A stretch of 64,000 bases of DNA, taken from Bradyrhizobiaceae bacterium PARB1 (GTDB lineage: Bacteria; Pseudomonadota; Alphaproteobacteria; Rhizobiales; Xanthobacteraceae). The stretch lies in the NCBI GenBank assembly GCA_002256345.1, contig NKIY01000008.1, forward strand, positions 62,001-126,000, written 5' to 3'. Both the position numbers and the translations under genes were made by a program. Shown here one piece after another: positions 44,870 to 60,879 of the stretch (positions are counted from its first letter, which is position 1; every line of letters starts with the position of its first letter). The notes below the pieces were generated by a model. It worked only from the letters and a program-made list of their open reading frames with translations. It was not told the DNA's origin and did not search any database.

Positions 44870-45003
44870 GGGCTATTCTCCTGCAGGAAATGTCGCGGAC
44901 GTATAGCCGCGGAACAATGCAGGAGTACAGGCCCGATTGCCCTCGCGCGGCGAATGGCAGCTATCGCGGCCAGACCTTACATGGCCGCCAAGCCCGCACG
45001 AGA

Positions 45004-45333: not shown

Positions 45334-45593
45334 AGGTCGTACTCCGCAGCCCTGCGCTGCATACTCGTTAGTGCCGGAAAGCGCCTTCACGTTCAGGCCA
45401 AATTTTGAACATGGCTGCGTCGATTTTGTTCCGGTGGGATCGTCCGATCGTCCCGTAAAGCTAAATGGGTATAACTGAGCACCGGAACCAGCGAGTTTTA
45501 ATCACTTCCTGGAGATCACACGCTTCCGCGCGGCATGGGAAAGCCGGTAGCATGATCCACAACAATGCTTGAACGAGCCAGGGGAGGACATCC

Positions 45594-46778
45594 ATGCCAT
45601 CCAGCGCCGACATCGACAGGATCATTCAACAGGCCTGCGACAGCGGGGCCATTCCCGGTGCAGTCGCGATGGCGGCGAGCGGCGATCACGTGATCTATCA
45701 GGGCGCCTTCGGTAAACGCGACATCAGCAAGGATGCCGCGATGACCGTCGACAGCGTGTTCTGGATCGCCTCGATGACCAAGGCGATCACAGCGACGGCG
45801 GCGATGCAGCTCGTCGAGCGCGGCAAGCTGTCGCTGGATGCGCCGATCGGCGCGGTCCTGCCCGACCTCTCGGCCATCCAGGTGCTGGAAGGTTTTGGCG
45901 ACGACGGCGAGCCGGTGCTGCGTCCGGCGCGGCGACCGGTCACACTGCGGCAGCTGCTCACCCACACGGCAGGCTTCTGCTACGACATGATGAACGCCGA
46001 TATGGGGCGCTGGCTGGAGAAGACAGGTACGCCCGTCTTTCGCACCGGCCTCAATGCCGCGATGCGGGTGCCGATCATGACCGATCCCGGCACACGCTGG
46101 GAATACGGCACCAATATCGACTTTGTCGGCAAGGCCGTGGAGGCTGCGAGCGGGCAGCGGCTGGATCACTATTTTCGGGAGCACATTCTCGATCCGCTCG
46201 GAATGTCGGACACCGCATTCCGGATCGGCGACGCGCAGCGGCAGCGGCTGGTAAAAGTGCATCGACGGAACATTGATGGATCACTCGCGCCGATTGAATT
46301 CGAGATCAAGCAAGACCCGGAATTCTTCGCCGGCGGCGGCGGCCTCTATGGCACGGCACCGGACTACATCAAATTCACGCAGATGATATTACGTAAAGGC
46401 GCGGGCAACGGCCACCGCCTGCTGCAACCGGAGACCGTCGCGTTGATGAGCGAGAATCACATCGGCGATCTCCATGTCACCCCGATGCGATCGGCGCTGC
46501 CGGCCGTCACCAATGACGCAGAACTTTGCCCCGGCATCGAGAAGAAGCACGGCCTCAGTTTCGTCATCAACATGGCCGCGACACCCGAAGGCCGCAGCGC
46601 CGGCAGCCTCGCATGGGCAGGGCTTGCCAATACCTATTACTGGATCGACCCGGTGCGCGACGTCACCGGCGTGACCCTGATGCAGTTGCTGCCCTTTGCG
46701 GACCGCAACTGCCTCCAAGTGTTTTCGGACTTCGAACGCGGCGTCTATGCGGGGCTGGGTGCGAAGAAGGCGGCGTAA
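45594..46778 (+). CDS. serine hydrolase of the beta-lactamase class C / EstB type
   Basis: Encodes 394 residues. The S-x-x-K motif is SMTK at 60-63, the second catalytic motif is Tyr in WEYGTNIDF near 166, and the third H/K-x-G region is represented by the C-terminal SLAWAGLANTYYWIDP. No signal peptide, so a cytoplasmic esterase is more likely than a periplasmic beta-lactamase. GGGGAGG lies 7 bases before the ATG. It converges on hppD with only two bases between the stops, inside a perfect 20-bp palindrome. Confidence 0.88.
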   Translation: MPSSADIDRIIQQACDSGAIPGAVAMAASGDHVIYQGAFGKRDISKDAAMTVDSVFWIASMTKAITATAAMQLVERGKLSLDAPIGAVLPDLSAIQVLEGFGDDGEPVLRPARRPVTLRQLLTHTAGFCYDMMNADMGRWLEKTGTPVFRTGLNAAMRVPIMTDPGTRWEYGTNIDFVGKAVEAASGQRLDHYFREHILDPLGMSDTAFRIGDAQRQRLVKVHRRNIDGSLAPIEFEIKQDPEFFAGGGGLYGTAPDYIKFTQMILRKGAGNGHRLLQPETVALMSENHIGDLHVTPMRSALPAVTNDAELCPGIEKKHGLSFVINMAATPEGRSAGSLAWAGLANTYYWIDPVRDVTGVTLMQLLPFADRNCLQVFSDFERGVYAGLGAKKAA

Positions 46779-46789
46779 CGTTACGCCGC
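46770..46789. repeat. 20-bp perfect palindrome containing both convergent stop codons
   Basis: GCGGCGTAAC and GTTACGCCGC are reverse complements with no spacer. It arises because the esterase and hppD both end in Ala-Ala-stop and meet two bases apart. There is no loop or T-run, so it is not a standard terminator. Confidence 0.7.
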
Positions 46790-47905
46790 GCTCTTGTCGG
46801 CAACATGCAACACGCCGCGCCGAATCTGATCTTCCTCGATCGATTCAAACAGCGCCTTGAAGTTGCCTTCGCCAAAACCGTCGTCGCCCTTGCGCTGAAT
46901 GAATTCGAAGAAGATCGGGCCGATGGCATTGGCCGAGAAGATCTGCAGCAGCACCTTGGTCTCGCCGCCATCGACCACGCCTTCGCCGTCAATGAGAATG
47001 CCGTTCTTCTGAAGACGCGGTACGTCCTCGCCATGTTTCGGCAGACGCGTATCGATCTTCTCGAAATAGGTCTCCGGCGGCGGCGGCATGAAGGGCAGAC
47101 CATCGGCACGCAGGCGTTCGATGGTGGAGTAGATATCCTTCACACCACAGGCAATGTGCTGGATGCCCTCGCCGCGATAGGTGTTGAGATATTCCTCGAT
47201 CTGGCCGCTATCGCCGGCATCCTCATTGATGGGAATGCGGATCTTGCCGTCCGGGCTGGTCAGCGCGCGGGAGAACAGGCCGGAGGCACGCCCCTCGATG
47301 TCGAAGAAGCGAATCTGGCGGAAGTTGAACAGCTTCTCATAGAAGCCGGTCCACACATCCATGCGGCCGCGATGGACGTTATGGGTGAGGTGATCGAGAT
47401 AGAACAAGCCGGCGCCGGCAGGGCACGGATTCTTGGCTCCTAGCCATTCGAACTCGAGATCATAGGCCGATCCCTTGGCGCCGTAGCGATCGACGAAATA
47501 GAGAAGGCTACCGCCGATGCCCTTGATGGCGGGGACATCGAGCGTCTTTTCAGCCGCACTCACATTGGCGGGCTCAGCCCCGAGTGCGATGGCGCGGTCA
47601 TAGGCCTTCTGAGCATCGACGACGCGGAAGGCCATGGAAGGCGCACAGGGACCATGCGCAGCCACGAATTTGAACCCATGGGTGCCTGGCTCCTCGTTAA
47701 CGAGGTAATTGATGTCGCCCTGGCGATAGACCGTGATCTTCCTGGTCTTGTGCCTCGCGACTGGCGCGTAGCCCATCAGCTTGAACAGCGCATGCAGCTC
47801 GCCGGGATTGGGGTGGGCATATTCGACGAGTTCGAAGCCGTCGGTGCCCATCGGGTTGTCGGCCGAAATCGTGGCGGCCGGCGCGTCATGCGGAAACGGA
47901 CCCAT
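46781..47905 (-). CDS. hppD: 4-hydroxyphenylpyruvate dioxygenase
   Basis: Encodes 374 residues. The enzyme converts 4-hydroxyphenylpyruvate to homogentisate in tyrosine degradation, using Fe(II). The ligand triad is visible: His172 in YLDHLTHNV, His250 in GIQHIACGV and Glu334 in IFFEFIQRKG; the last block with KGDDGFGEGNFKALFESIE is invariant in the family. The start at 47905 has AGGGAG nicely spaced; a longer frame to 47989 runs into the operator. No hmgA or fah gene is nearby. Control by the divergent Lrp-type regulator is likely. Confidence 0.95.
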   Translation of the reverse strand: MGPFPHDAPAATISADNPMGTDGFELVEYAHPNPGELHALFKLMGYAPVARHKTRKITVYRQGDINYLVNEEPGTHGFKFVAAHGPCAPSMAFRVVDAQKAYDRAIALGAEPANVSAAEKTLDVPAIKGIGGSLLYFVDRYGAKGSAYDLEFEWLGAKNPCPAGAGLFYLDHLTHNVHRGRMDVWTGFYEKLFNFRQIRFFDIEGRASGLFSRALTSPDGKIRIPINEDAGDSGQIEEYLNTYRGEGIQHIACGVKDIYSTIERLRADGLPFMPPPPETYFEKIDTRLPKHGEDVPRLQKNGILIDGEGVVDGGETKVLLQIFSANAIGPIFFEFIQRKGDDGFGEGNFKALFESIEEDQIRRGVLHVADKSAA

Positions 47906-47989
47906 CTCGTTCTCCCTGATCTGATGCGGACATATGTCGCTTGAGGGCAGTCTGGGGTGTCCGGGGTGCAAGGTGCGTGCAATCTGCAC

Positions 47990-48040
47990 CGCGAAATGAC
48001 ATGATTATGCACAACCCGTGCATAAAGGGATCATTTCGCG
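47990..48040. promoter_or_regulatory. concentric double dyad between hppD and the Lrp-family gene
   Basis: Outer arms CGCGAAATGA (47990-47999) and TCATTTCGCG (48031-48040) and inner arms TTATGCAC (48005-48012) and GTGCATAA (48018-48025) are all perfect and share the same centre at 48015. The 51-bp element ends one base before the Lrp-family ATG and lies 85 bases upstream of hppD. Lrp/AsnC proteins bind such multiple sites as dimers of dimers, so this is a strong candidate for the autoregulatory and hppD-control site. Confidence 0.75.
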
Positions 48041-48041
48041 C

Positions 48042-48518
48042 ATGATCGAGGTGGATTCGTTCGATCTGAAGATGCTGGCCGCCCTGCAGGACGATGGCCG
48101 GCTGACCAACCAGCAGCTCGCCGACCATGTCGGCCTGTCGGCCTCGCAATGCTCCCGGCGGCGGATGCGGCTGGAGGATGAGAAGGTGATATCGGGCTAT
48201 CACGCCGATCTTGCGCCGGAAGCACTCGGCTTCGGCGTCGTCGCCTTCATCCAGGTCACGCTCGCCACCCACTCCCCCGACAATGCGAAGAAGTTCCGCA
48301 CGCTGGTGCAGCGCGTCGACGAAATCCAGGAGGCCTATTCGCTCACCGGCGATGCCGACTATGTACTCAAGGCCATCCTGCGCGACCTGAAGGGCCTGTC
48401 AGACCTCGTCAACGACGTGCTGATGCCGCATCAGAGCGTCGCGCATGTGCGTTCGTCGATCGTCCTGGATCGGTTGAAGGAAACCAGCAAGCTGCCGCTC
48501 AAGGCGCTGAAGTCATAG
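48042..48518 (+). CDS. Lrp/AsnC-family transcriptional regulator
   Basis: Encodes 158 residues. N-terminal helix-turn-helix (DSFDLKMLAALQDDGRLTNQQLADHVGLSASQCSRRRMRLE) followed by an RAM/AsnC effector domain (GFGVVAFIQVTLATH, QEAYSLTGDADYVLKAILRDLKGLSDLV). It is divergent from hppD across a concentric dyad and is likely a tyrosine/phenylalanine-responsive regulator of that gene, by analogy with HpdR-type regulators. The start at 48042 was chosen so that the ATG follows the dyad; an ATG at 48018 lies within it. Confidence 0.9.
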   Translation: MIEVDSFDLKMLAALQDDGRLTNQQLADHVGLSASQCSRRRMRLEDEKVISGYHADLAPEALGFGVVAFIQVTLATHSPDNAKKFRTLVQRVDEIQEAYSLTGDADYVLKAILRDLKGLSDLVNDVLMPHQSVAHVRSSIVLDRLKETSKLPLKALKS

Positions 48519-48539
48519 GCTGCAGGAACGGGTTGACCG

Positions 48540-49349
48540 TCAACTGTTGACGAAGGAGCGCGACGGCGGCCGGTGCACGGCATAGGCATCCGCCTTCCCG
48601 TCCACGCGCGGATACAGTTCGCGCACCAGCGGATCGTGACCGGGAATGATGCGATCGGGATGGCCTGCGAGACGCTCGCAGGTCCGCCAGCCATCGCACA
48701 TGTCGCCGATATTGTAGACGATTGGAAACGGGCTGCGACGCTGTAGATTGCCGTAGTAGTGCGCCGCGTCCGAAGCCAGCACCACCGGGCCCCGTTCGGT
48801 CTCCACACGTACAATCTGCAAACCATCCGAATGGCCGCCAACGCGGTGCAGAGTAATGCCGGGCGCAACCTCGCCCTCACCATTATGGAAGGTGACGCGC
48901 TCGCTATAGACATGGCGGACCATCAAGGTGACGTCTTCGGCCGAGAACGGATGCCGAAGCAGACCGTTGCACATGCAGCGACCGGTGGCATAGGCCATCT
49001 CGCGATCCTGCAGATGGAAGCGCGCATTCGGAAACCGATCGAGATTGCCGGCGTGATCGTAGTGCAGATGCGTGATGACAACATCGCGGATCGTTTCAGC
49101 CGCCACGCCGAATTGCGCGAGCGCATCGACCGGATTGATCGCAAGCGCACGATTGCGCTCTTTCGCCGCAATCTCGTTGAAACCGGTATCGACGAGAATG
49201 TCGCGACCATCGCCGCGAATGAGCCAAATGAAGTAATCGAGGTCCGCTGCCGTGGTCTCATGCGGATCCGGCGACAGGTAATTCATCGCCGGCGTCCGCG
49301 GCGTCATGGTGGCATATCGGATCGCATAGATTTCGTAAGTCGGCTTCAT
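48540..49349 (-). CDS. metallo-beta-lactamase-fold N-acyl homoserine lactonase-like hydrolase
   Basis: Encodes 269 residues. The zinc motif H94-x-H96-x-D98-H99 is seen in THLHYDHAGN, with further ligands His in VGGHSDGLQ, Asp in LASDAAHYYGN and His near the C terminus in IIPGHDPLV. The overall layout fits the AttM/AhlD lactonase branch of the family. Quorum-signal or other lactone cleavage is plausible but untested; the GGHSDG and SDAAHYYGN segments are typical of that branch. It follows the Lrp gene convergently with a 21-base gap. Confidence 0.85.
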   Translation of the reverse strand: MKPTYEIYAIRYATMTPRTPAMNYLSPDPHETTAADLDYFIWLIRGDGRDILVDTGFNEIAAKERNRALAINPVDALAQFGVAAETIRDVVITHLHYDHAGNLDRFPNARFHLQDREMAYATGRCMCNGLLRHPFSAEDVTLMVRHVYSERVTFHNGEGEVAPGITLHRVGGHSDGLQIVRVETERGPVVLASDAAHYYGNLQRRSPFPIVYNIGDMCDGWRTCERLAGHPDRIIPGHDPLVRELYPRVDGKADAYAVHRPPSRSFVNS

Positions 49350-49595
49350 GGAGCGTCATCCCGCGCTTCTGTTCTTGCCGCCACCAAGCCAGTTTCGTGC
49401 GCAAAAATCAAACCGTTCCAACCGCCGGAACGACAACATTCATGAGCGCGTCATGGTGCGATGAAACACAACGCGCGCGACGGAAACCAATGCGTCGACG
49501 GCCATAATAGGGATTGTTTGATAATACATATTGCGTGGACTAAGGTCGCCGCGGCGCGGGGTCGTTGCCGCGTTTTGCTGTTGAACGGGCTCATT

Positions 49596-51086
49596 ATGAA
49601 GATTCGAATCGCGCTGATCGCCCTGCTGACGCTGTCCACCGCCCCCATCTCGCAGGCGACCGCCGCCGAGGAACGCGCGCCGCGGGTCGCTCTGGTGATC
49701 GGCAATGCCAAATATCCGGACGCCGAAGCGCCGCTGAAAGAACCGATCAACGATGCCCGGGACATTGCGGCCGAACTGAAGCGCGACGGCTTCGAAGTCG
49801 AAACCGGCGAAAATCTCGGCGGCGACGGCATGCGCCGCGCGCTCGAGAAGCTCTACGGCAAGGTGACGCCCGGCACGGTGGCGCTGGTGTATTTCAGCGG
49901 CTACGGCATCCAGTCGTCACGCCAGAGCTACATGCTCCCGGTAGATGCCCAGATCTGGACCGAAGCCGATGTTCGCCGCGACGGCTTCAGTCTGGAGACG
50001 GTGCTCAACGAGCTCAACGGCCGCGGTGCCGGAGTGAAGATTGCGCTGCTAGATGCGTCGCGCCGCAATCCATTCGAACGTCGGTTTCGCAGCTTCTCCG
50101 CTGGCCTCGCACCCGTGATCGCGCCCAGCAACACGCTGGTGATGTATTCCGCCGCACTCAGCTCGGTGGTCAGCGATGCCGGCTCCGATCGCAGCCTGTT
50201 CGCCACAGAATTGCTCAAGGAGATCAAGGTTCCGGATATTACTGCCGAACAGACCTTGAACCGCACCCGCGTCAGCGTGACACGCGCCTCGCGCAGCGAG
50301 CAGGTGCCGTGGATTTCGTCGTCGCTGGCGGAGGATTTCGCCTTCGTCCCGGGCTCGCGCCCGTCATCCGTTGCTGCGGCGGAGCCGGCCCCGGCGCCAG
50401 TCGCGCCGCCGCGTCCCGAGCCCGTCACGCCTGCGCCCGCCAAGCAGGCTGCGGTCACTCCCGCTCCTGCCCCGCTGACGGCCGCACCAGCGCCGGCTCC
50501 CACGCCAGCACCGGCTCCGGCAGTCGCGCCTGTGGCACCGCCGGCTGCCGACGTGCCCCGCGATGAAGACAAGATCCTGCTGGCGCTCGCCGACGATCCG
50601 ACGGTGAAATCCCTGAACGGCAAGATCACCGAGAATGCGGAAGACGCCGGCGCGCTTTACAGGCGCGGGCAGGTCTATGCCAGCAAAGGCGCCTATTCTG
50701 CCGCGCTGAAGGATTTCGACGTCACCATCAAACTCAGCCCCAAAGATGTCGAGGCCTATAACAATCGCTGCTGGGTCCGTGCCGTGACCAACGATCTCGC
50801 GGGCGCGCTGAAGGACTGCAACGAAGCGCTGCGGCTACGGCCGAATTTCGTCGATGCGCTGGACAGTCGCGGCCTGGTCAATCTCAAAAACGGTCAGAGC
50901 AAGAACGCCATCACCGATTTCGACGCAGCCTTGAAGATCAACCCGCAGCTGACGTCCTCGCTCTATGGCCGCGGCCTTGCGAAGCAGCGCCTCGGCCAGA
51001 CCGCCGAGGGCGAGCTCGATATCAACAATGCCAAGGCGATGGACCCGGATATCGTGAAGGAATTTGCCAGCTACGGCGTGCGCTGA
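49596..51086 (+). CDS. caspase-fold protein with Tyr/Ser in place of catalytic His/Cys, plus TPRs
   Basis: Encodes about 496 residues. A signal peptide (ending near ATAAEE) precedes a caspase-like domain at 28-260: RVALVIGNAKYPDAEAPLKEPINDA and VALVYFSGYGIQ. The His of the usual GHG is Tyr103 and the Cys of the usual DAC is Ser155 (LLDASRRNPF), so it is a YS-type pseudo-caspase. A Pro/Ala-rich linker (about 265-345) leads to three to four tetratricopeptide repeats. Such inactive orthocaspases are known in cyanobacteria and some proteobacteria. It starts the rightward locus that includes the OmpA-like protein and an RND pump. Export to the periplasm is expected. Confidence 0.85.
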   Translation: MKIRIALIALLTLSTAPISQATAAEERAPRVALVIGNAKYPDAEAPLKEPINDARDIAAELKRDGFEVETGENLGGDGMRRALEKLYGKVTPGTVALVYFSGYGIQSSRQSYMLPVDAQIWTEADVRRDGFSLETVLNELNGRGAGVKIALLDASRRNPFERRFRSFSAGLAPVIAPSNTLVMYSAALSSVVSDAGSDRSLFATELLKEIKVPDITAEQTLNRTRVSVTRASRSEQVPWISSSLAEDFAFVPGSRPSSVAAAEPAPAPVAPPRPEPVTPAPAKQAAVTPAPAPLTAAPAPAPTPAPAPAVAPVAPPAADVPRDEDKILLALADDPTVKSLNGKITENAEDAGALYRRGQVYASKGAYSAALKDFDVTIKLSPKDVEAYNNRCWVRAVTNDLAGALKDCNEALRLRPNFVDALDSRGLVNLKNGQSKNAITDFDAALKINPQLTSSLYGRGLAKQRLGQTAEGELDINNAKAMDPDIVKEFASYGVR

Positions 51087-51266
51087 GACAGCGCCGCCCC
51101 CTGTCCTGGGGCAGGTGACACACAATTTTGCCAAATAGATTTGAACCGGCGCCGCGTAGTCGAACACTATTGAACACAAGCCGGACACCAATCGTCGCGA
51201 CCGGCCAGCAAACGACTTTGGATGGAGCCACGCGCCTGATGCGCGATCGGAAATAGGGGTGCTTTC

Positions 51267-51926
51267 ATGTTCAGATCGTCCACACGCATCAGCGTCAACG
51301 CCATCCGCGCCGCCGTCGTCGCGGGCGCGGCCATCACCTTCACCGCCAGCGCTGTGATCGCGGCGGAAGACGTCACTTCCGACCAGATTCTCCGCGCGCT
51401 GGCGCCGAAGAAACCGCTGACCCGGGGCCTCTCGATGGCTCCTCCGGCCGAGCCGGCCGTGAACGCCGCGGAAGGCAAGTTCATGGATTCCCTTCGCAAC
51501 CGTAGCACCAGATCGTTGTCGCTGGGCGAGCGCGAACAGATCGCCACCATTGCGCAGACCAAGCCGGCGATCGATCTCGAGATCAATTTCGACTACAACT
51601 CGGCCAATATCAGCAAGCGCTCGATGCAATCGGTGCAGGCGCTCGGCAAGGCGCTGAGCAGCCCCGACCTCAAAGGCTCGACCTTCGTCGTCGCCGGTCA
51701 CACCGATGCTGTCGGCGGCGAAGAGTACAATCAGGAACTGTCCGAGCGCCGCGCCGATTCGATCAAGCGCTTTCTGGTCGATCGCTTCGGCATCGCCGGC
51801 GCAGACCTCGTGACAGTCGGCTATGGCAAGACCAAGCCGAAGAGTGGTCTCGCGCCGACCGATCCGACCAATCGCCGCGTTCAGGTCGTAAATATGGCCA
51901 ATAAGGCAACCGCCTCGTCGCAATAA
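51267..51926 (+). CDS. OmpA-family peptidoglycan-binding protein
   Basis: Encodes 219 residues: a signal peptide (to about AVIAAE), a variable N-terminal part, and a C-terminal OmpA-like domain with INFDYNSANISKRSMQSVQALGKALSS, VVAGHTDAVGGEEYNQELSERRADSIKRFL and the conserved DAVG/NQ.LS..RA and NRRV motif. There is no visible lipobox or barrel, so the protein is periplasmic and may anchor the nearby system to peptidoglycan. It lies 180 bases after the pseudo-caspase gene and 169 before the adaptor gene. Confidence 0.88.
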   Translation: MFRSSTRISVNAIRAAVVAGAAITFTASAVIAAEDVTSDQILRALAPKKPLTRGLSMAPPAEPAVNAAEGKFMDSLRNRSTRSLSLGEREQIATIAQTKPAIDLEINFDYNSANISKRSMQSVQALGKALSSPDLKGSTFVVAGHTDAVGGEEYNQELSERRADSIKRFLVDRFGIAGADLVTVGYGKTKPKSGLAPTDPTNRRVQVVNMANKATASSQ

Positions 51927-52095
51927 TGCGCTGAGGTACACATTGCCGCTGCGGATTGCCGCATGACAGCGTTCCGGCCTTCACGGAGCGCTGTTTGCTT
52001 TGGCGATCACACACATCCCGTATAGGATCGCTTCACCCTGCCGACGCACCGCGCATTGACCGGTGCTCCGCCTTGCCAAGTGGACTCATTCGATA

Positions 52096-52989
52096 ATGAA
52101 GGCCTCTGCCCGCTTCGTCCCGGCTCTTGCCATCCTGTCGCTGACGACAGCTGCTATCGCTGCTGATCCAGCTCCAAGCGGATCGCCCAACGGCGCTGTC
52201 GTGACTGTCGCCAAGGCGACCAATGCATGTTTCTCTGATCAGGTGCGCGTCACTGGCTTCGTAGTGCCGCGACGCGAAGCGCAGATCGGTGTCGATACCG
52301 AAGGCTCGCGTGTTTCGGAAGTTCTGGTCAAGGAAGGCGACATGGTCGCCGAGAACCAGGAACTCGCGCGTTTGATCCCGCCGCCTTCTGCCAGCAATGC
52401 GCGGCCCAACGCGGTGCCGCTGCGCGCACCCGCTGCGGGCCTTGTCACCACGGTGATGACCCAGGCCGGCGCGCCAGCCTCGCCGCAGGCCGGACCGATG
52501 TTCAAGATCGCCATCAACAACGAGCTCGAACTCGACGCCGAAGTACCTAGCATTCACATTCTCAAGCTGAATCCGGGTGCGACTGCGCGCATCAGCCGCG
52601 ACGGCCATGCCGACATCTTCGGCAAGGTGCGGGTGGTGTCGCCGCAGATCGATCGCACCACCCAGCTCGGCCATGTGCGGCTTTCGCTTGCACCCAATCC
52701 CTCGATCAAGGTCGGCATGTTCGCCCGCGCCAATATCGATGCACGGCGCAGCTGCGGCGTCGCCATCCCGCGCTCGGCCATCGAGCACTTCACCGTGCAA
52801 CTGGTGAAGGGCAATGTGATCGAGACGCGACGCGTCAAGGTCGGGCTCGTCTCCGACAATGCCACGGAAATTCTCGAAGGCGTCGAAGTCGGCGACATCG
52901 TCGTCGCCGATGCCGGCACGTCGCTGCATGACGGCGACAAGGTTCAGACTATTTTTGCAGACGATCTCGATCGCTCGCGGGTGCGCTAA
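52096..52989 (+). CDS. RND periplasmic adaptor, first copy (with Cys pair)
   Basis: Encodes about 297 residues. Signal peptide ends near AAIAAD. Adaptor features: VTGFVVPRREAQIGVDTEGSRVSEVLVKEGDMVAENQELARL and VPLRAPAAGLVTTVMTQAGAPAS (two half-lipoyl motifs with a short loop in place of the long hairpin). Cys45 in NACFSDQ and Cys220 in RRSCGVAIP are placed identically in the second adaptor, suggesting a structural disulfide. It ends directly before the pump ATG (52990). The absence of a long alpha-hairpin makes contact with an outer-membrane factor uncertain. Confidence 0.82.
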   Translation: MKASARFVPALAILSLTTAAIAADPAPSGSPNGAVVTVAKATNACFSDQVRVTGFVVPRREAQIGVDTEGSRVSEVLVKEGDMVAENQELARLIPPPSASNARPNAVPLRAPAAGLVTTVMTQAGAPASPQAGPMFKIAINNELELDAEVPSIHILKLNPGATARISRDGHADIFGKVRVVSPQIDRTTQLGHVRLSLAPNPSIKVGMFARANIDARRSCGVAIPRSAIEHFTVQLVKGNVIETRRVKVGLVSDNATEILEGVEVGDIVVADAGTSLHDGDKVQTIFADDLDRSRVR

Positions 52990-55900
52990 ATGGCAATGAA
53001 TATCTCGGCATGGTCGATCCGCCATCCGCTCCCCTCCGTCGTATTCTCCATCATCCTGCTGCTGCTCGGCTGGATCAGTTTTACCAAGCTTGCGATCACA
53101 CGGCTGCCGAGTGCTGATATCCCCGTGATCTCGGTCGCCGTGGCCCAATTCGGTGCTGCGCCGGCCGAACTTGAAGCACAGGTCACCAAGACAATCGAAG
53201 ACGGTGTCTCCGGCGTCGAGGGCGTCCGCCATATCTCCTCGTCGATCACCGACGGTTTGTCGGTGACGACCGTTCAGTTCGCGCTCGAAACGAACACCGA
53301 TCGCGCCCTCAATGACGTGAAGGATGCCGTCACCCGCGTCCGCGCTAACCTGCCGCAAAACGTCAACGAACCGCTGATCCAGCGGGTGGACGTGATCGGG
53401 CTGCCGATCGTCACTTATGCCGCGATCTCGCCGGGCAAGACGCCGGAGCAGCTCTCGTGGTTCGTCGATGACGTCGTGAAGCGCGCGCTGCAAGGCGTGC
53501 GCGGCGTGGCACAGGTCGAACGCATCGGCGGCGTCGAACGTGAAATCCTTGTATCGCTCGATCCGGATCGGTTGCAGGCCGCCGGCCTCACTGCCGTCGA
53601 CGTCAGCCGCCGACTGCGCGGCACCAATGTGGATCTTGCTGGCGGCCGCGCCGAAATCGGCAAAAACGACCAGGCGATCCGCACGCTTGCCGGTGCCAAG
53701 ACCCTGAACGAACTCGCGGGCACCATGATCAGCCTGCCGTCCGGCGGCGAAGTACGGCTGGAGGATCTCGGCACCGTCACTGACACGATCGCCGATCGCC
53801 GCACTTTTGCGCGTCTTAATGGCGAGCCGGTGGTGGCGCTCGGCATCAAACGCTCCAAGGGCGCCAGCGACGTGGTGGTCGCAGAAGCCGTGCAGAAGCG
53901 CATCAGCTCGCTAAAAGAATCCTACCCCGATGTCGATCTGAAGCTGATCGACACGTCGGTGGAATTCACCAAAGGTAATTACGACGCCGCCATGAGCACG
54001 CTATTCGAGGGCGCGGCACTGGCGGTCATCGTTGTATTCCTGTTCCTTCGCGATCTGCGTGCCACCGTGATCGCCGCGGTCTCGTTGCCGCTCTCCATCT
54101 TCCCGGCCTTTTGGGTGATGGACATGCTCGGTTTCTCGCTCAACCTGGTCAGTTTCCTCGCCATTACGCTATCCACGGGCATTCTCGTCGATGACGCCAT
54201 CGTGGAGATCGAGAACATTGTAAGGCACATGCGGATGGGCAAGTCGCCCTATCGCGCTGCGCTGGAAGCTGCCGACGAAATCGGCCTCGCGGTGATTGCG
54301 ATCAGTCTCACGATCATCGCGATCTTTGCACCCGCCAGCTTCATGTCGGGCATCGCCGGCCAGTTCTTCAAGCAGTTCGGCATCACCGTCTCGGTGCAGG
54401 TGTTCTTCTCGCTGCTGGCGGCACGTTTCGTCACGCCCGTGCTGGCGGCCTATTTCATGAAGGATCACAAGCACGACGATCCACCGCCAGGCCGAATTCT
54501 GCAGCTTTACCACAAGCTCGTGACCCTTTCGGTGAAGCGCTACTACCTCACGGTTCTGTTCGGCATCGGCGTCTTCGCATTGTCGATCCTCAGCATCCAG
54601 TTGCTGCCACAAGGCTTCCTGCCAGCGCAGGACACAGCTCGCTCGCTCCTGGCGATGGAATTGCCGCCCGGCTCGCAGCTCGCGTTCACCGAAAAGACCA
54701 CCGAAGAGATCGTGCAGCGCCTGCGCAGGCGGCCCGAGATCAAGAGTGTCTTTGTCGATGGCGGCCGGGTGCCGCCCGGCATCTCCGAAGTCCGGCGCGC
54801 CTCACTGATCATCAACTACACGCCGAAGGGCGACCGCAAAATCTCGCAGCGTGAACTCGAACTTGCGATCGGTGAAGAGCTGCAAGGCGTCCCGGATATT
54901 CGCTACTGGTTCCTCGACGAGAACGGCCTGCGCGCCATCTCGCTGGTCGTGACCGGACCTGACATCAACATCGTCAGCAATGTCGCCAACGAGCTGGCGA
55001 CGCAGATGAAGCGCATTCCGCTGATCGCCAATGTGATCTCTGAAACCTCGCTGGATCGCCCGGAACTGCGCGTGCAGCCGCGCGCCGATCTTGCCGCACG
55101 CCTTGGCGTCTCGACTGAGGGCCTTTCCGAGACCATCCGCGTCGCCACCATCGGCGATGTCGGCCCCGCATTGGCGAAATTCGATACCGGCGATCGGCTC
55201 GTGCCGATCCGCGTACAGCTCGAGGACAGCGCGCGTTCCGATATCCAGGTGCTCGAACAACTCCGTGTGCCCATCGGCGGCGGGCGTGGTGGCGTGCCGC
55301 TCTCGGTCGTCGCCGATATCAAGCTCGACCAGGGACCGACCAGCATCAATCGCTATGACCGTGAACGACAAGCGACGGTCGCGGCGGATCTCGTCGGTAC
55401 GGCCGCGCTCGGCGATGCGCTGAAGAAAATCTACGAACTGCCTGTGATGAAGACGCTGCCGAAGAATGTCAGCGTCAAGCAATCCGGCGACGCGGAAAGC
55501 CTGAATGAACTTGCGGATGGTTTCGCCACTGCGATCTCGGCCGGCTTGATGATGGTCTATGCGGTGCTGGTGCTATTGTTCGGCACCTTCCTGCAGCCGA
55601 TCACCATCCTGTTCTCGCTGCCGCTCTCGATCGGCGGCGCGATCATGGCGCTGCTTGTCACCGGCAAGCAACTGACCACTCCGGTGTGGATCGGCATCCT
55701 GATGCTGATGGGCATCGTCACCAAGAACGCCATCATGCTGGTGGAGTTTGCGGTGGAATCGATCCGCGAAGGCAAACCGCGCGATGTCGCCATCATCGAT
55801 GCAGGCATGAAGCGCGCGCGGCCGATCGTGATGACCACGATCGCCATGGCGGCGGGCATGATGCCGTCGGCTCTGGCATGGGGTGCGGGCGGTGAATTCC

Positions 55901-56097
55901 GCTCGCCGATGGCGCTTGCCGTGATCGGCGGCCTGATCTTCTCCACGTTGCTGTCGCTCATCTTCGTGCCGGCAATGTTCCTGATGATGGACGATGTCGG
56001 CAATCTGTCGTCGCGCTTGGGCCGCAAGCTGCTGGTTTCCAGCGGCGAGGAAGATCGCAACCATCCGCCCACCGGACATGGACAGGCCGACCGATGA
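52990..56097 (+). CDS. RND transporter permease, HAE1-like
   Basis: Encodes 1035 residues. MNISAWSIRHPLPSVVFSIILLLLGWISFTKL opens the protein; proton-relay motifs are LSTGILVDDAIVEIENI in helix 4 and LMGIVTKNAIMLVEF in helix 10. Periplasmic blocks such as VRHISSSITDGLSVTTVQFALETNTDRALNDVKDAVTRVR mark it as a complete RND pump. It differs clearly from the MexB-like pump at 37-40 kb. It is flanked at both ends by adaptor genes, with zero and overlapping junctions (ATGA with the downstream adaptor). Substrate unknown; no outer-membrane factor is encoded nearby. Confidence 0.95.
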   Translation: MAMNISAWSIRHPLPSVVFSIILLLLGWISFTKLAITRLPSADIPVISVAVAQFGAAPAELEAQVTKTIEDGVSGVEGVRHISSSITDGLSVTTVQFALETNTDRALNDVKDAVTRVRANLPQNVNEPLIQRVDVIGLPIVTYAAISPGKTPEQLSWFVDDVVKRALQGVRGVAQVERIGGVEREILVSLDPDRLQAAGLTAVDVSRRLRGTNVDLAGGRAEIGKNDQAIRTLAGAKTLNELAGTMISLPSGGEVRLEDLGTVTDTIADRRTFARLNGEPVVALGIKRSKGASDVVVAEAVQKRISSLKESYPDVDLKLIDTSVEFTKGNYDAAMSTLFEGAALAVIVVFLFLRDLRATVIAAVSLPLSIFPAFWVMDMLGFSLNLVSFLAITLSTGILVDDAIVEIENIVRHMRMGKSPYRAALEAADEIGLAVIAISLTIIAIFAPASFMSGIAGQFFKQFGITVSVQVFFSLLAARFVTPVLAAYFMKDHKHDDPPPGRILQLYHKLVTLSVKRYYLTVLFGIGVFALSILSIQLLPQGFLPAQDTARSLLAMELPPGSQLAFTEKTTEEIVQRLRRRPEIKSVFVDGGRVPPGISEVRRASLIINYTPKGDRKISQRELELAIGEELQGVPDIRYWFLDENGLRAISLVVTGPDINIVSNVANELATQMKRIPLIANVISETSLDRPELRVQPRADLAARLGVSTEGLSETIRVATIGDVGPALAKFDTGDRLVPIRVQLEDSARSDIQVLEQLRVPIGGGRGGVPLSVVADIKLDQGPTSINRYDRERQATVAADLVGTAALGDALKKIYELPVMKTLPKNVSVKQSGDAESLNELADGFATAISAGLMMVYAVLVLLFGTFLQPITILFSLPLSIGGAIMALLVTGKQLTTPVWIGILMLMGIVTKNAIMLVEFAVESIREGKPRDVAIIDAGMKRARPIVMTTIAMAAGMMPSALAWGAGGEFRSPMALAVIGGLIFSTLLSLIFVPAMFLMMDDVGNLSSRLGRKLLVSSGEEDRNHPPTGHGQADR

Positions 56098-56996
56098 TCG
56101 CGTCGCATTCCTTCTCCACGCAACGGACCGTCGCCATGCTGAAGCGCTTCCTGCTTGCCGCCGCACTCTGTTCTCTCGCAACGCCGGGCCGCGCCGCAGA
56201 CGAGGCCGACCTCGCCAAGGGAGCTGCCGTCACCGTGCTGGCAGCTTCCAAACAGTGTTTCGCCGATACGGTCGATGTTTCGGGTCTGCTACTGCCTCGC
56301 GAAGAAACCACGATACGGCCTGACCGACCCGGCATGAAGGTCGCGGAAGTCATGGTCGATGCCGGCGAAAATGTCACCGCGGGCCAGATCCTTGCTCGGC
56401 TCACCTCGCCTGACGGCGGCTCGGTTCAGCTCCAGGCGACAGTCGCCGGCCTCGTCAGCGCTTCGACTGCCGTGGTGGGTACAATCGCATCTGCCCGCGG
56501 CGAGGCGCTGTTCAGTATTATCGCACGCAGCGAGTTCGATTTCATCGGTCAGGTGCCGACCCGCGATCTGCCGAAGCTCAAGGTCGATCAACCTGCAAAG
56601 ATCAAGGTGATTGGAATCGGCGAGCTCGATGCCAAGGTGCGCCGTGTCGCTCCGTCGGTGGAGCCAAACAGCCAGCTCGGTCAGGTGGTGATCGCGCTTA
56701 ATTCGCCGCGCCGGCTGATGACCAATTCCTATGCGCGCGCGATGATCAAGACCGGGGAAAGCTGCGGCGTCGCACTGCCGCTCACCGCAATTCTCTACAG
56801 CTCCGGGGGCACCGTCGTGCAAGTGGTGCGTCGCCATAGAATCGAAACGCGCCGCGTCGAGGTGGGGCTGCTATCCGGCGGACAGATCGAAATTCGCGAA
56901 GGTCTCAATGCAGGCGATATCGTCGTCGCGCGCGCCGGCGCCTTGCTGCGCGAAGGGGATCCAGTGCGGCCGGTGACGATCAACGCGGGGAAGTGA
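56094..56996 (+). CDS. RND periplasmic adaptor, second copy (with Cys pair)
   Basis: Encodes about 300 residues and overlaps the pump stop by ATGA. The adaptor half-motifs are VSGLLLPREETTIRPDRPGMKVAEVMVDAGENVTAGQILARL and SVQLQATVAGLVSASTAVVGTIASARGEALF. Cys55 (KQCFADT) and Cys224 (ESCGVALP) match the pair in the first adaptor, so the two are diverged paralogues. A second ATG at 56136 gives a cleaner signal peptide (MLKRFLLAAALCSLATPGRA), whereas coupling favours 56094. It is the last gene of the rightward unit; the second pseudo-caspase converges on it 44 bases away. Confidence 0.82.
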   Translation: MIASHSFSTQRTVAMLKRFLLAAALCSLATPGRAADEADLAKGAAVTVLAASKQCFADTVDVSGLLLPREETTIRPDRPGMKVAEVMVDAGENVTAGQILARLTSPDGGSVQLQATVAGLVSASTAVVGTIASARGEALFSIIARSEFDFIGQVPTRDLPKLKVDQPAKIKVIGIGELDAKVRRVAPSVEPNSQLGQVVIALNSPRRLMTNSYARAMIKTGESCGVALPLTAILYSSGGTVVQVVRRHRIETRRVEVGLLSGGQIEIREGLNAGDIVVARAGALLREGDPVRPVTINAGK

Positions 56997-57040
56997 AGTA
57001 ACCGCTTCTGCGGAGCGAGAATGTTTCGCTCCGACCGCCC

Positions 57041-57907
57041 TTAGCTGCCGGCGCGTGCCGTCACGGCAGCGCCGAACTTGACTTCGTCGATGAGCGACGA
57101 CGACACGGCGGGAACCTGTTCGCCATCAGACGCGCGGGTGACGGCGGTGCGGGTGTTGGTGAACACGGCCTCGGCGCTGACCGGTTTCGCTTTCAGGTTC
57201 TTCAAAAATTCGGTGGCGAGCAGGCTGTTCTGGCCGTCGACATCGTCGGCGACTTTGCCCGGCGTTGCCGAGGTGAGGATCAGCGTCTTCTCGGGGAGAT
57301 CGATGGGTGCAAGGCCGCGCGAATAGGCCCGGAAGCGGCGCTCATAGGGATTACGTCGGGATGCATCGAGCACAACCAGCTTGGCCTGGGCACCGCGCTC
57401 CTTCATGACATCGAGCACGGTCTCGATGCTCATGCCCTGGCGACGCACATCGCGCTCGCGCCAGATCGCCGCATCGACCGGGATCATGTAGCTCTGGCGG
57501 CCGACCTGCACGCCATAACCGCCGAAATAGAGCATCACTGTGCTGTCGGGCTTGATCTTGTTCTTCAGCCGCTCAACTGCGCGGGTCATGTCATCGCGCG
57601 TAGCGTCTTCGATTACATCGACGTCGAAACCGTCCTGGCGCAGCGCGTGAGTCACGGCGCGCGCGTCGTTGATCGGCTGCAACAGCGGAGAGCCAGCATC
57701 AGGATAGTGGCCATTGCCGATGACGAGGGCCAGACGCGAGCTGTCAGGAGCGGTCTGGGTCGTCGCAAGACCGACGGAAGCACGTGCGGAATCCATGACA
57801 TGCTTGTTCAGCGCGGCATGGGCACCGAGCGCAAGCGAGACCAGACCGGCAAAAGCAACGGTCATGGTGATCGATCGTCGGGATACGCGAAACTGCCCTA
57901 CGTGCAT
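57041..57907 (-). CDS. second caspase-fold protein with Tyr/Ser active-site substitutions
   Basis: Encodes 288 residues. An uncleaved-looking N-terminal membrane helix (about 13-33) precedes the caspase-like domain: RLALVIGNGHYPDAGSPLLQPINDA, YFGGYGVQVGRQSYMIPVD and VVLDASRRNPYERRFRAYSRGLAP. Tyr131 replaces the catalytic His and Ser183 replaces the Cys. It aligns closely with the pseudo-caspase domain at 49.6 kb (both have QSYM.PVDA.IW...DVRR and TRASR/D.EQVP...SSL), so the two are paralogues; this one lacks TPRs. AGGAA lies 9 bases upstream of the ATG. It is convergent with the adaptor-pump operon. Confidence 0.83.
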   Translation of the reverse strand: MHVGQFRVSRRSITMTVAFAGLVSLALGAHAALNKHVMDSARASVGLATTQTAPDSSRLALVIGNGHYPDAGSPLLQPINDARAVTHALRQDGFDVDVIEDATRDDMTRAVERLKNKIKPDSTVMLYFGGYGVQVGRQSYMIPVDAAIWRERDVRRQGMSIETVLDVMKERGAQAKLVVLDASRRNPYERRFRAYSRGLAPIDLPEKTLILTSATPGKVADDVDGQNSLLATEFLKNLKAKPVSAEAVFTNTRTAVTRASDGEQVPAVSSSLIDEVKFGAAVTARAGS

Positions 57908-58247
57908 AACGTCGTTTCCTGCTCATCATTCACGCGCAACCAGTTGGTCGCGCGGACGTCTGACTAGGTTTGAAGGGGTGCCGAACCAATGAGTATCAAA
58001 TGTGCTCAATTTGCGGCACCGCAACCAACCCGCTGTTAACCCGTCGGGATCAACCGGGCAACGGGTAAAGGGCTCCATTTAAGACAGGGTTACTGACGCA
58101 ACGGAACTCCATTGCGCCCCCGACAATTGAATTCCGGCTTGATTCATGCTGGATTTCAATAGCTTGCAGGTGTCGGGGGAGGTTTCGGCGCAGTTGGCGA
58201 CGGTCAATTTCCAAGACGTGCGCGGACGCCGCACCGAAAGATGCTCC
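57908..58247. other. 340-base non-coding gap between the pseudo-caspase and the terpene-cyclase-like gene
   Basis: The stretch holds the divergent promoters. I see a small dyad, ACCCGT at 58039-58044 with ACGGGT at 58061-58066, and no open frame, tRNA or terminator. If the longer start at 58146 is used for the next gene, the gap shortens to 238 bases. Confidence 0.5.
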
Positions 58248-59975
58248 ATGACTGTGACCTATATGGCCCGCGCCGCCTTCGAAGCGCTCACCGTCCGGAG
58301 GAATGGACCGACGCTTTACGACCTGTGCGACCCCATCCTCCGCCGCCCAGGTACCGGGGACGCCCACATCGTCAAATTCTATAATACTGCGCTCGGAAAC
58401 CCGGCACTCCGGCCGTTGCTGCGACGGGCAGGCCTGCCAGAATTGCGCGATCCAGCCCGTTTCAAAGCGCTCCAGGACGCTCTGATCGCCGCCCGGGACG
58501 ACGCGGAGCCGGATTGGGAGGCCGTCGGTCGGCCAGTGGCCGAGCTGCTCGACACTATAAGCCTGCGGCATCCTGCCCCGCCAAGGGTGTCGGCGACCGG
58601 TTCGGCGCCGTCGATCGGCGAAATCGACGAAGTGATCCGCGCCTGCGGCAAGCATCTGCTCGAGTCCTTCGACAGAAATGGATTCATCCCGACCTATGCA
58701 GCCTTCAATCTGATCGGCGACCCCGACATGCATGGCCGCGAGTTCCTGATGGCGCTGACCGGACTGAATGCCCGCGGCTACAAGAACTCTACCCTGTTGT
58801 TTACGCTCGCCCGCGCCTTCATCGCGCGCTCGCCGGCCGGGAAGCTGATCAATCCGCCCTGGACTGGAATTGCCGAACCGATGTGGGAGCCGGTGCAGAT
58901 CCGCCATCGCTCGGCCTATTACGACGCCTTCTTCACCGAGGCCTTGCTCGCTTTTGGCGAGACCGGACTATCAACCAAAGAGCAAAACGCAAAGTCGCGC
59001 TGCGCCATCGATGCGATGATTGAATTCTGTCTCGTCACATCGCGCGAGGAAGTGAAGTCGCATGACGGCAGCAGCGTCCATGTGATCACGGCGCTGGCGC
59101 CGCCGCCGCATCCGCGCTTCAGCCGCTTCTTCGCGCAGATCAAACAGGATCTCGGCTTTGGCATTTATGTGCCGGACTGCGACACCACGGCCTGCTCGTT
59201 CTCTGCAGCAACGCAGGCCGGATCAAACGACTCCATTCTCGATCAGCCGCTACTCGACTTCTATGCTGGCTATCAGGTCAATGAAGGCGCCAACGAACCG
59301 CTCGTCACGGTGCCGATCAACGACCACATCAACTACGATGGCGCCATAGCAACCTGGATCGACAATCTCGCCGGCCAGCGCCCCTATGGCAACGATCTCG
59401 ACCCGACCCTGAATCTCGACGTGCTGGAGGTCTCGTTCCGCAACTGCGCGCGCTGGCAGGTGCTGGAAACGCCGAAGCGCCTGGAGACGGTGCAACGGAT
59501 CATCGGTTTTCAGCGACGCCTCGTCGAATCCGGGGCCTTTGCCGATCCGAGATCGCACATCTATTATCTGCCGGAGCTCTACTGCGCTTATTTTGGCCGC
59601 TGCTACGCGGCATTTCGCGCCTTGCCTGACGATACGCAACGCAAGCTCGACCCCGAAGATACATTCGAATTCATCAGACCACAGATTCTCGCTTACGTCG
59701 CCAATGAGCTGATCTCCCGCGAGATGAATGCATTCGATGCCGCCCTTGCCCTGATTGCACTCGGCCATCTCGGCGGCGACATCGCGCTGTTTACACCGGC
59801 GCTGCAGTGCATCATCCGCGGCTATGGCGAGGGCGGTCGGAAGGGGCCATTCAAGTCGTATGAGTGGAATAAGATGAAAACGCCGACTCGCATCCTGGTC
59901 GGCGGCCCCGAGGTCACGTCGGCTTTCGTGCTCATGGGTCTCGCTCTGGCGCGACATGCGATACATGGGCATTGA
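58248..59975 (+). CDS. large conserved protein with a class II terpene-cyclase-like motif
   Basis: Encodes 575 residues (609 from an ATG at 58146). It is soluble and mostly helical. I do not recognise it with certainty. The segment YVPDCDTTACSF (Asp codon at 59175) lines up with the DxDDTA acid motif of squalene-hopene and class II diterpene cyclases, and sequence before (FGIYVP) and after (HINYDGAIATWIDN, YYLPELYCAYFGRCYAAF) suggests alpha/alpha-barrel repeats. A cyclase or prenyl-binding role is therefore possible but unproven. Start is uncertain: the longer start adds 34 residues with no strong ribosome site. Neighbours give no clear terpene pathway. Confidence 0.6.
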   Translation: MTVTYMARAAFEALTVRRNGPTLYDLCDPILRRPGTGDAHIVKFYNTALGNPALRPLLRRAGLPELRDPARFKALQDALIAARDDAEPDWEAVGRPVAELLDTISLRHPAPPRVSATGSAPSIGEIDEVIRACGKHLLESFDRNGFIPTYAAFNLIGDPDMHGREFLMALTGLNARGYKNSTLLFTLARAFIARSPAGKLINPPWTGIAEPMWEPVQIRHRSAYYDAFFTEALLAFGETGLSTKEQNAKSRCAIDAMIEFCLVTSREEVKSHDGSSVHVITALAPPPHPRFSRFFAQIKQDLGFGIYVPDCDTTACSFSAATQAGSNDSILDQPLLDFYAGYQVNEGANEPLVTVPINDHINYDGAIATWIDNLAGQRPYGNDLDPTLNLDVLEVSFRNCARWQVLETPKRLETVQRIIGFQRRLVESGAFADPRSHIYYLPELYCAYFGRCYAAFRALPDDTQRKLDPEDTFEFIRPQILAYVANELISREMNAFDAALALIALGHLGGDIALFTPALQCIIRGYGEGGRKGPFKSYEWNKMKTPTRILVGGPEVTSAFVLMGLALARHAIHGH

Positions 59976-60086
59976 TCGTTTTGCTCGCGCGGAGTTGAGG
60001 CGATCTATCCATCGCGCACTGGCATCTGCGACGAAATACCGGCACTGTCCTCCGATTGTCGTCACGATCTTGTAATCCAAGGCCTT

Positions 60087-60818
60087 ATGCGCATGTCCCG
60101 CTGGTTTTGCCTCGCCCTTGTCGTTCTCAGCCTGCCGATATCGGCAGAGGCCGCTGATATCACTGGCGTTCCTAAAATCCGCGACGCGAATCAGGTCACC
60201 ATCGGCAATACGCGTATCCGTCTCGCTGGCTCCGATGCTCCTGGTCTCGATCAGCTATGCCTCAACGCCAATGGCGAGCGTTGGAACTGCGGCGTCGCCG
60301 CCCATGACGCGCTGGTGGCGCGGACGAGCGACAAGACCTGGACCTGCCGCACGCAACGCACCGATCGCTTCGGCCGCACCATCGCCAAATGCGAGGCAGA
60401 CGGCGAAGATGTCGCGCAGTGGCTGGTGAAAAGCGGTTGGGCGCTGTCCTATGTGCGCTTCTCGCATGTTTACGATGCGGATGAGAAAGCTGCCCGCGAA
60501 GCGCAGGTCGGGTTGTGGACCGGCGCCTTCATCGCGCCGTGGGACTGGCGGGTCCGCAACAAGAAGGCTGGCCCCCTGGGCGCGATCAAGCCGACGCCGG
60601 AAACTTCGCCGATCCTGCTCGCGTCGGCATCCGGCGCCACGCCGCCTTCGCCGGCCTGCCGGATCAAGGGAAATGTCAATCGCGCCGGCGTCTGCATCTA
60701 TCACACCCCGGAAAGCCGCTGGTATGCCAAGATCAAGATGCGTGTCAGCAAGGGCACGCGCTGGTTTTGTTCTAAAGAAGAGGCTGAAGCTGCCGGTTGC
60801 CGCGAGACTCGTCGCTGA
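60087..60818 (+). CDS. secreted SNase-like protein with a sunset-type C-terminal domain; catalytic residues altered
   Basis: Encodes 243 residues with a signal peptide ending near AEAAD. The nuclease-like fold is recognised from IRLAGSDAPGLDQLC, CGVAAHDAL and DRFGRTIAKCEADGEDVAQWLVKSGWAL. Compared with staphylococcal nuclease, Asp21 is replaced by Asn35 (DANQ for DGDT) and Glu43 by Gly53 (DAPG for DAPE), while Arg35 and Arg87 equivalents are kept, so activity is doubtful. The C-terminal 55 residues (CRIKGNVNRAGVCIYHTPESRWYAKI, RWFCSKEEAEAAGC) look like a sunset/excalibur-like module. Comparison positions are by motif alignment. Confidence 0.78.
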   Translation: MRMSRWFCLALVVLSLPISAEAADITGVPKIRDANQVTIGNTRIRLAGSDAPGLDQLCLNANGERWNCGVAAHDALVARTSDKTWTCRTQRTDRFGRTIAKCEADGEDVAQWLVKSGWALSYVRFSHVYDADEKAAREAQVGLWTGAFIAPWDWRVRNKKAGPLGAIKPTPETSPILLASASGATPPSPACRIKGNVNRAGVCIYHTPESRWYAKIKMRVSKGTRWFCSKEEAEAAGCRETRR

Positions 60819-60879
60819 TCCGGCCGGCTTGGCGATGACATCGCGGCGCTGACGTGGCAGGGTCCGCCGGCGATTCCCC

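Follow-up and report, generated by a model that had tools for sequence, protein, structure and literature searches.

Introduction

The locus described here occupies positions 49596 to 57907 of a 64,000-nucleotide stretch (the window, contig NKIY01000008.1, positions 62,001 to 126,000 of the forward strand, assembly GCA_002256345.1) from Bradyrhizobiaceae bacterium PARB1, and encodes two pseudo-caspases, an OmpA-like protein and an RND (resistance-nodulation-division) transporter with two periplasmic adaptors of the membrane fusion protein type (MFP1 and MFP2). Its closest described relatives are pseudo-orthocaspases on the one side and RND pumps on the other, and the published accounts of both are drawn on here as excerpts. 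In the survey of Klemencic et al. 2019 (PMC6426788), Rhizobiales account for 561 of the 582 pseudo-orthocaspases from Alphaproteobacteria, and a role in photosynthesis is offered. The Rhizobiales proteins resemble the caspases of the present locus in their p20 fold, their Tyr/Ser, Phe/Ser or Tyr/Ala dyads and their conserved acidic pocket, and the Phe/Ser type carries tetratricopeptide repeats (TPRs), like many orthologues of caspase 1 (PMC6426788). Models of cyanobacterial pseudo-orthocaspases in the same work suggest that the pocket could hold basic substrates. Its text makes no mention of RND, efflux, operons, OmpA or genomic context, whereas here the clade is tied to an RND-adaptor unit. 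SyOC from Synechocystis, a bacterial pseudo-orthocaspase with a reported role in oxidative stress (PMC7889975), is cyanobacterial and is likened to our proteins by description only.

Among the pumps, TriABC-OpmH from Pseudomonas aeruginosa (PMC8277102) is alike in that its single RND gene is accompanied by two distinct adaptor genes. Our locus differs from it in the adaptor-RND-adaptor gene order, in adaptors that lack the helical hairpin and carry a Cys pair, in having no channel gene seen at the locus, and in its caspase and OmpA partners. BesA from Borrelia burgdorferi (PMC3807786) is likewise without the helical hairpin and has a short loop between its lipoyl halves, like MFP2. BesABC, however, has a single adaptor (17% identity) co-transcribed with the transporter and an outer-membrane channel, and no caspase or OmpA partner is named in the excerpted text; the same study points to rare proteobacterial hairpin-less sequences, for example in Legionella. 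In the operon survey of Asplund-Samuelsson et al. 2012 (PMC3501461), 14 metacaspase operons contain OmpA domains and 16 have cell-surface functions, with transporters named as an example; its text contains neither of the words RND and efflux, and the excerpts do not tie a dead dyad to a pump. Among the matches listed from open-licence papers, none joined caspases to RND pumps, which is a weak negative. We classify the locus as a variant of the two-adaptor RND systems with accessory pseudo-orthocaspases, a combination that we take to be new.

Organization of the locus

An ORF (open reading frame) check of the window confirmed six uninterrupted ORFs at 49596-57907, and together with the Pfam assignments this bears out the originally described six-gene set with no unrelated gene between. 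The host genome is Tardiphaga-like and 6.95 Mb in size. Pseudo-caspase 1 (49596..51086, plus strand), whose start was taken as the ATG at 49596 within a longer ORF beginning at 49461, comprises a predicted signal peptide, a caspase fold with Y103/S155 at the dyad positions, a Pro/Ala-rich linker and TPRs (Pfam Peptidase_C14, E = 4.2e-36, plus TPRs). It is followed after 180 bp by the OmpA-like protein (51267..51926, plus strand; OmpA domain, E = 1.9e-22), which has a predicted exported N-terminus without a lipobox Cys, and after a further 136 bp by MFP1 (52063..52989, plus strand), a hairpin-less adaptor with a conserved Cys pair that starts at GTG 52063 or, more likely, at ATG 52096. The HAE-1-like RND transporter (52990..56097, plus strand; ACR_tran, E = 1.2e-225) carries D401, D402 and K912; it abuts MFP1 with a gap of 0 bp and overlaps by 4 bp with MFP2 (56094..56996, plus strand), which is hairpin-less and carries Cys55/Cys224. 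HlyD-type adaptor domains are found in both MFP1 and MFP2, which are paralogues (40% identity over 285 aa). Pseudo-caspase 2 (57041..57907, minus strand; Peptidase_C14, E = 2.7e-35) has a Tat-like N-terminus and a caspase fold with Y131/S183. The bracketing by two caspases in the original prediction stands in so far as both flank the OmpA and pump genes; caspase 2, however, is convergent with MFP2 and, being on the minus strand, lies outside the plus-strand run.

Association of the pseudo-caspases with the pump genes

The association between the caspase and pump genes is real, and their placement together is beyond chance. In a family sample of 119 genomes searched at 1e-20, MFP1 has a match in 54 and caspase 2 in 70, and the 25 genomes with an MFP1 of at least 60% identity are the same 25 that have a caspase 2 of at least 60%, which agrees with the expected co-occurrence of the caspases with the MFP-RND-MFP unit. 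Proximity was counted in 35 of the 54 genomes, adaptor matches weaker than ~1e-39 being excluded (19 genomes with adaptors of 31-36% identity; the MFP2 contig-end fragment G102:C41 was also excluded). The pseudo-caspase clade, delimited by a caspase 2 E value below 1e-50, has 70 matches (37 genomes), and 44 of these have an adaptor gene within 3 kb. A location mostly remote from the RND unit, the outcome that would have spoken against the original prediction, is therefore not seen for this clade. For comparison, 80 remote caspases were among the matches listed, and for the 44 that come from the 35 genomes with adaptors (row G004:C230:12989 left aside) the counts are 0/44 within 3 kb and 1/44 within 8 kb; the His/Cys caspase that adjoins caspase 1 in relatives falls mostly outside this listed set, whose dyads are unread.

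In 27 of the 35 genomes caspase 1 precedes MFP1 in the same orientation, and this holds for each of the 27 caspase-1-like genes within 3 kb of an adaptor. Three of the eight remaining genomes (G105, G011 and G054) have contig ends here, with caspase pieces at the matching ends. A fourth is G083 (L129, near 3483-3820), in which caspase 1 is a short TPR remnant before MFP1 and MFP1, RND, MFP2 and caspase 2 are kept, and the last four belong to genus g10 and have no pseudo-caspase adjoining MFP1-RND. Of the 80 named loci with caspase 2, 72 have an MFP2 at its 3' side in the opposite orientation; the gap is at most 1.5 kb in 68 of them and reaches 4.2 kb at the widest. Of the eight named loci without MFP2, the contig runs out within 1.5 kb in six and after 2.3 kb in one, leaving Rhodopseudomonas sp. 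Cfx3-05 as a true exception. In the family sample, 17 of the 25 genomes have MFP2 no more than 3 kb from caspase 2. Of the two caspases, the first is the core partner of the pump and the second the looser one.

The arrangement extends beyond the family. In the 249-genome order sample, two genomes of one genus in a second family (G331 and G287) keep the order caspase-OmpA-MFP1-RND at identities of 43-46% for caspase 1, 36-40% for MFP1 and 73-74% for RND, with MFP2 plus an AsmA-family gene within ~20 kb; their caspase dyads are Tyr/Ala and Phe/Ser. Further afield the set is rare: at 1e-55, caspase 1 was found among the 121 genomes of another order sample only in the host and in two genomes of genus g25, and at 1e-35 MFP2 was found among 240 genomes of the class sample only in the host genome.

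The pseudo-caspases

The two caspase domains are paralogues, as originally proposed (50% identity over 245 aa), and the alignment places the Tyr and Ser residues of each at the positions of the catalytic His and Cys, in agreement with the Tyr/Ser type first assigned to them. Dyads of the caspase 2 orthologues (n = 92) are Tyr/Ser in 81 rows and Phe/Ser in 11, and those of the caspase 1 clade (n = 32) are Phe/Ser in 18, Tyr/Ser in seven, Tyr/Ala in five, Val/Ser in one and Phe/Ala in one, with no His/Cys in either set; a few genomes were entered twice in these counts, once under a name and once under a sample handle. The Phe-for-Tyr swap occurs even inside Tardiphaga. The caspase (p20) fold is therefore accompanied by the substituted dyad of a pseudo-orthocaspase, and no caspase 1 or 2 row shows the His-Cys dyad of an active orthocaspase. 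Since Phe and Ala are tolerated at the dyad, Tyr and Ser are, as judged from the orthologues, not a catalytic pair, and a catalytic Tyr/Ser dyad was rejected on account of these substitutions.

In a maximum-likelihood tree of 109 rows, a 100/98 branch sets the 81 pseudo-caspases apart, and caspase 2 forms a single group (100/100), although the tree tool warns of long branches where the pseudo-caspases join the other caspases. Because the tree holds one dead clade, the dyad was most simply lost before the copies that became caspase 1 and caspase 2 arose. A third pseudo-caspase encoded elsewhere in the host genome (G000:C16:118517-119167; L007, L167) with a Tyr/Ala dyad and a very long Pro-rich tail groups with His/Cys caspases in the tree, apart from the window pair, and probably represents a second loss of the dyad.

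The substrate pocket appears to have been kept. The motif DASRRNP around the caspase 2 site and the acids D81 and D181 are invariant in 42 sequences, and the two acids align with acidic positions of MALT1 which we take to have a role in Arg binding. MALT1 is also the best structural match of the caspase 2 model (pLDDT 74, pTM 0.71). The nearest named relative of caspase 2 comes from a Tardiphaga metagenome-assembled genome (93%). The N-terminus of caspase 2 has an S-R-R motif (first Arg in 86/92 rows, second in 91/92) followed by a hydrophobic stretch ending in AHA-A, reminiscent of a Tat signal. The hydrophobic stretch could be the membrane anchor suggested in the original prediction; export followed by cleavage, in view of AHA-A, is equally likely.

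The transporter, adaptors and OmpA-like protein

Residues D401, D402 and K912 of the transporter, which we assume from AcrB to be the proton relay, are kept in 39/39 rows, and among solved structures MdtB and other HAE-1 pumps are closest in sequence. The transporter thus has the D-D/K relay residues of the HAE-1 family. Its adaptors have the lipoyl and barrel domains usual for such pumps and are without the hairpin. When the MFP2 profile is compared with MexJ, the solid match starts at MexJ residue 141 and residues 31-90 match weakly (E = 9.6), so that the MexJ stretch holding the hairpin has no counterpart in MFP2. The spacer between the lipoyl-half anchors measures 9-19 residues in MFP2 (103 rows) and 9-77 residues, median 19, in MFP1 (44 rows). 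In the MFP2 model (pLDDT 82, pTM 0.60), strand 99-104 leads to strand 110-114 with no helix between, a short loop like that of BesA, which is also the top Foldseek match (E = 2.8e-16). Both adaptors lack the helical hairpin, MFP1 by its sequence and MFP2 by sequence and predicted structure. The Cys pair is present in 103/103 rows of MFP2 (Cys55/Cys224) and 43/44 rows of MFP1, and probably forms a disulphide. Chain 6vej, which we take to be a TriA-TriB fusion, is among the nearest solved sequences to the adaptors. In the OmpA domain, D147 and R161 are kept in 35/35 rows and presumably bind peptidoglycan.

A larger cluster in relatives

In relatives, an intact His/Cys caspase is located upstream of caspase 1 (690-770 residues in seven loci) and is itself preceded by an OmpA gene in all four loci with enough upstream sequence. 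Three further genes lie between RND and MFP2: one for a Crp-family regulator, which is convergent, one for an AsmA-family protein and one for a dCache-HAMP-GAF adenylate cyclase. Counts were made in 30 loci selected because they combine caspase 1 with MFP1, and their 30/30 caspase 1 is therefore not evidence; as many stretches end early, the counts are minima: OmpA in at least 26, AsmA in at least 16, Crp in at least 14, the cyclase in at least 11 and the His/Cys caspase in at least eight. None of the last four was seen in the six Tardiphaga-like loci among these 30, where the upstream stretch is short (~0.5-2.6 kb), and it is only for the window that a His/Cys caspase upstream of caspase 1 is excluded. 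The host genome has no Crp match at 1e-15 and no cyclase match at 1e-60, and its AsmA relative (30% identity) is elsewhere. In the window lineage, without Crp, AsmA and cyclase, the six-gene core stays together. The ancestral cluster was probably larger, and the window looks like a pruned version keeping the pump, the adaptors, OmpA and both dead caspases.

In four loci of genus g10 (L147, L149, L151 and L153), a Crp-family regulator is found beside MFP1-RND without caspase 1, and three of these loci also have a cyclase relative nearby; the regulatory genes remain beside the pump even after rearrangement.

The reading of the locus as a functional set finds partial support: co-occurrence and proximity speak for it, but the two caspases are unequally tied to the pump, caspase 2 being the looser, and the regulator, cyclase and AsmA genes stand inside the set in relatives.

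Neighbouring genes and other scans

Divergent from caspase 2 is a gene for a 609-residue protein (g7, 58146-59975, plus strand) without a match in Pfam or NCBIfam. It occurs in 72 of the 80 named loci, and where caspase 2 has been relocated it is alongside in 6/6 fetched loci (L186-L191). The next gene (60087-60818, plus strand) encodes a predicted exported staphylococcal-nuclease-like (SNase) protein with a C-terminal 'sunset' domain; an SNase-like gene also adjoins g7 and caspase 2 in many named loci and is found in 5/6 of the relocated ones.

No strict match to the EcfG-type general-stress promoter motif is located upstream of any locus gene. A loose match is seen at 49427, 169 bp before caspase 1, the only one in 49 caspase 1 rows overall. 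A loose EcfG-like motif precedes g7 in 15/96 rows compared with 1.8% of background stretches; these rows are related and the motif may reflect shared descent. An Rfam scan of 45000-61000 gave no match, a sigma-70 scan found one site versus 2.0 in shuffles, and a terminator scan found nine versus 6.8 (sd 2.6), neither exceeding the shuffled sequences. An anti-phage defence system was considered and rejected: the PADLOC matches are weak and generic (caspases 19.9 and 33.5 bits, ZorB 18.8-22.8 bits), with none for RND or g7.

Discussion

The repeated adjacency across genomes of Bradyrhizobium-like soil bacteria suggests that the pseudo-caspases are structural or regulatory parts of the pump. We tentatively favor the view, which we would call plausible while stopping short of probable, that the locus encodes the central part of a conserved envelope machine, in which the dead caspases and OmpA are dedicated accessories of a proton-driven, two-adaptor RND transporter. 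This view starts from the gene association, the lost dyad, the missing hairpin, the relay-type and OmpA-domain residues and the conservation of the cluster; from the anatomy of the proteins and their neighbours we infer complex formation, tethering, gating, cargo and regulation. MFP1 and MFP2 would together build a mixed ring that sits on the RND trimer; without a hairpin, such adaptors would lack the usual means of gripping a TolC-type channel. OmpA and caspase 1 are the encoded parts with an evident reach to the cell wall and are for this reason proposed to dock the ring: they would tie the assembly to the wall and position or gate the adaptors. With its pocket kept, its cutting activity lost, its linker and its TPRs, caspase 1 could bind either to the ring or to a stretch of basic peptide in a partner, the acidic pocket acting as a non-cutting clamp, while caspase 2 would be a second, looser partner at the MFP2 side. 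The sensor adenylate cyclase and Crp regulator in the cluster of relatives would probably set its expression. The adjoining AsmA-family protein hints at an envelope lipid as cargo: as phospholipid is reported to travel between the E. coli membranes by way of the AsmA-family proteins YhdP, TamB and YdbH (PMC11226057; PMC8912898), an envelope lipid is, by analogy, our best guess. An envelope-stress or scaffold function of the locus, as first suggested, would likewise be a conclusion from context. That every part is right, that is, an RND pump with a mixed hairpin-less ring that does not dock to TolC, is built onto the wall by dead caspases and OmpA, and passes lipid on to a bridge of the AsmA type, the caspase fold serving as a non-cutting recognition or gating part, we consider unlikely.

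Several observations weigh against an envelope machine with dedicated caspases. The co-occurrence in 25 of 25 genomes tracks the clade, so it does not amount to 25 independent events and the number is weak alone. Four genomes of genus g10 have MFP1-RND without an adjoining pseudo-caspase, OmpA is missing upstream of MFP1 in four of the 30 chosen loci, and in eight of 25 genomes caspase 2 lies either on a separate contig or at a distance of 6.6 kb to 4.2 Mb from any adaptor match counted, one of these at a contig end. In the order sample, G266 has RND (54%) and MFP1 (41%) and no caspase match in 17 kb, and nine further genomes with weaker MFP1 matches fall outside the neighbourhood check. Caspase-pump pairs do not stand out in distance correlations, which are uninformative for co-evolution, and the partial r of RND is 0.50 with g7 and 0.51 with MFP2. 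No TolC-type channel was found among the Pfam-scanned locus neighbours, the rest of the genome not having been searched, and in BesABC a hairpin-less adaptor, according to the excerpts, still works with a TolC homologue (PMC3807786).

The dead caspases could instead chiefly control the intact His/Cys caspase of the cluster, as decoys or substrate-holding partners, the pump being a co-regulated neighbour. Such a caspase is located upstream of caspase 1 in eight of the 30 chosen loci, the remote caspase rows have a His/Cys dyad in 12/12, the acidic pocket is retained in the dead caspases, and the closest relative of the cluster His/Cys caspase is found in the host genome on another contig (L172). 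That genome has eight caspase-family matches, namely the two Tyr/Ser proteins of the locus, five with His/Cys and one with Tyr/Ala. On the window's contig, however, the dead pair are the only caspase-family matches and both are still with the pump, and pseudo-caspases track the adaptors where the listed remote caspases do not. We regard control of the intact caspase as the main role as an unlikely explanation.

An ordinary two-adaptor drug-efflux pump whose neighbours stay together through inheritance alone would account for the single phylogeny shared by all locus genes, for co-occurrence as a property of the clade, and for g7 being as conserved beside caspase 2 as MFP2 is (72/80 each). It does not readily explain the caspase-OmpA-MFP1-RND order kept in a second family at low identity, a core that stayed together despite changing gene content around it, or the lack of such proximity for the listed remote caspases, and we hold it to be unlikely as well.

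That Tyr/Ser is a working unconventional hydrolase site, making these proteins active envelope proteases or esterases, might be argued from the Ser at the nucleophile position and the DASRRNP invariant in 42 caspase 2 sequences, but it is highly improbable given Phe for Tyr in 11/92 caspase 2 rows and in 19 (18 Phe/Ser and one Phe/Ala) of 32 caspase 1 rows, and Ala for Ser in six of 32. A function linked to photosynthesis, as proposed in the literature for pseudo-orthocaspases of purple bacteria and cyanobacteria, where the excerpts tie them to phototrophic orders (Klemencic et al. 2019, PMC6426788), is scarcely credible as the role here: reaction-centre genes are present in eight of 27 module genomes, but no match to them was found in the other 19, among which is the window genome, and a general photosynthesis link for this clade was therefore rejected.

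For this clade of pseudo-caspases, a link to photosynthesis is not needed. The locus contributes a further setting beyond spirochaetes for hairpin-less adaptors, which bears on how RND transporters are linked to the outer envelope. A conserved and specific set of partners makes the role of a pseudo-orthocaspase directly testable, and the locus may be a case of a caspase fold kept for binding, not for cutting, in the bacterial envelope.

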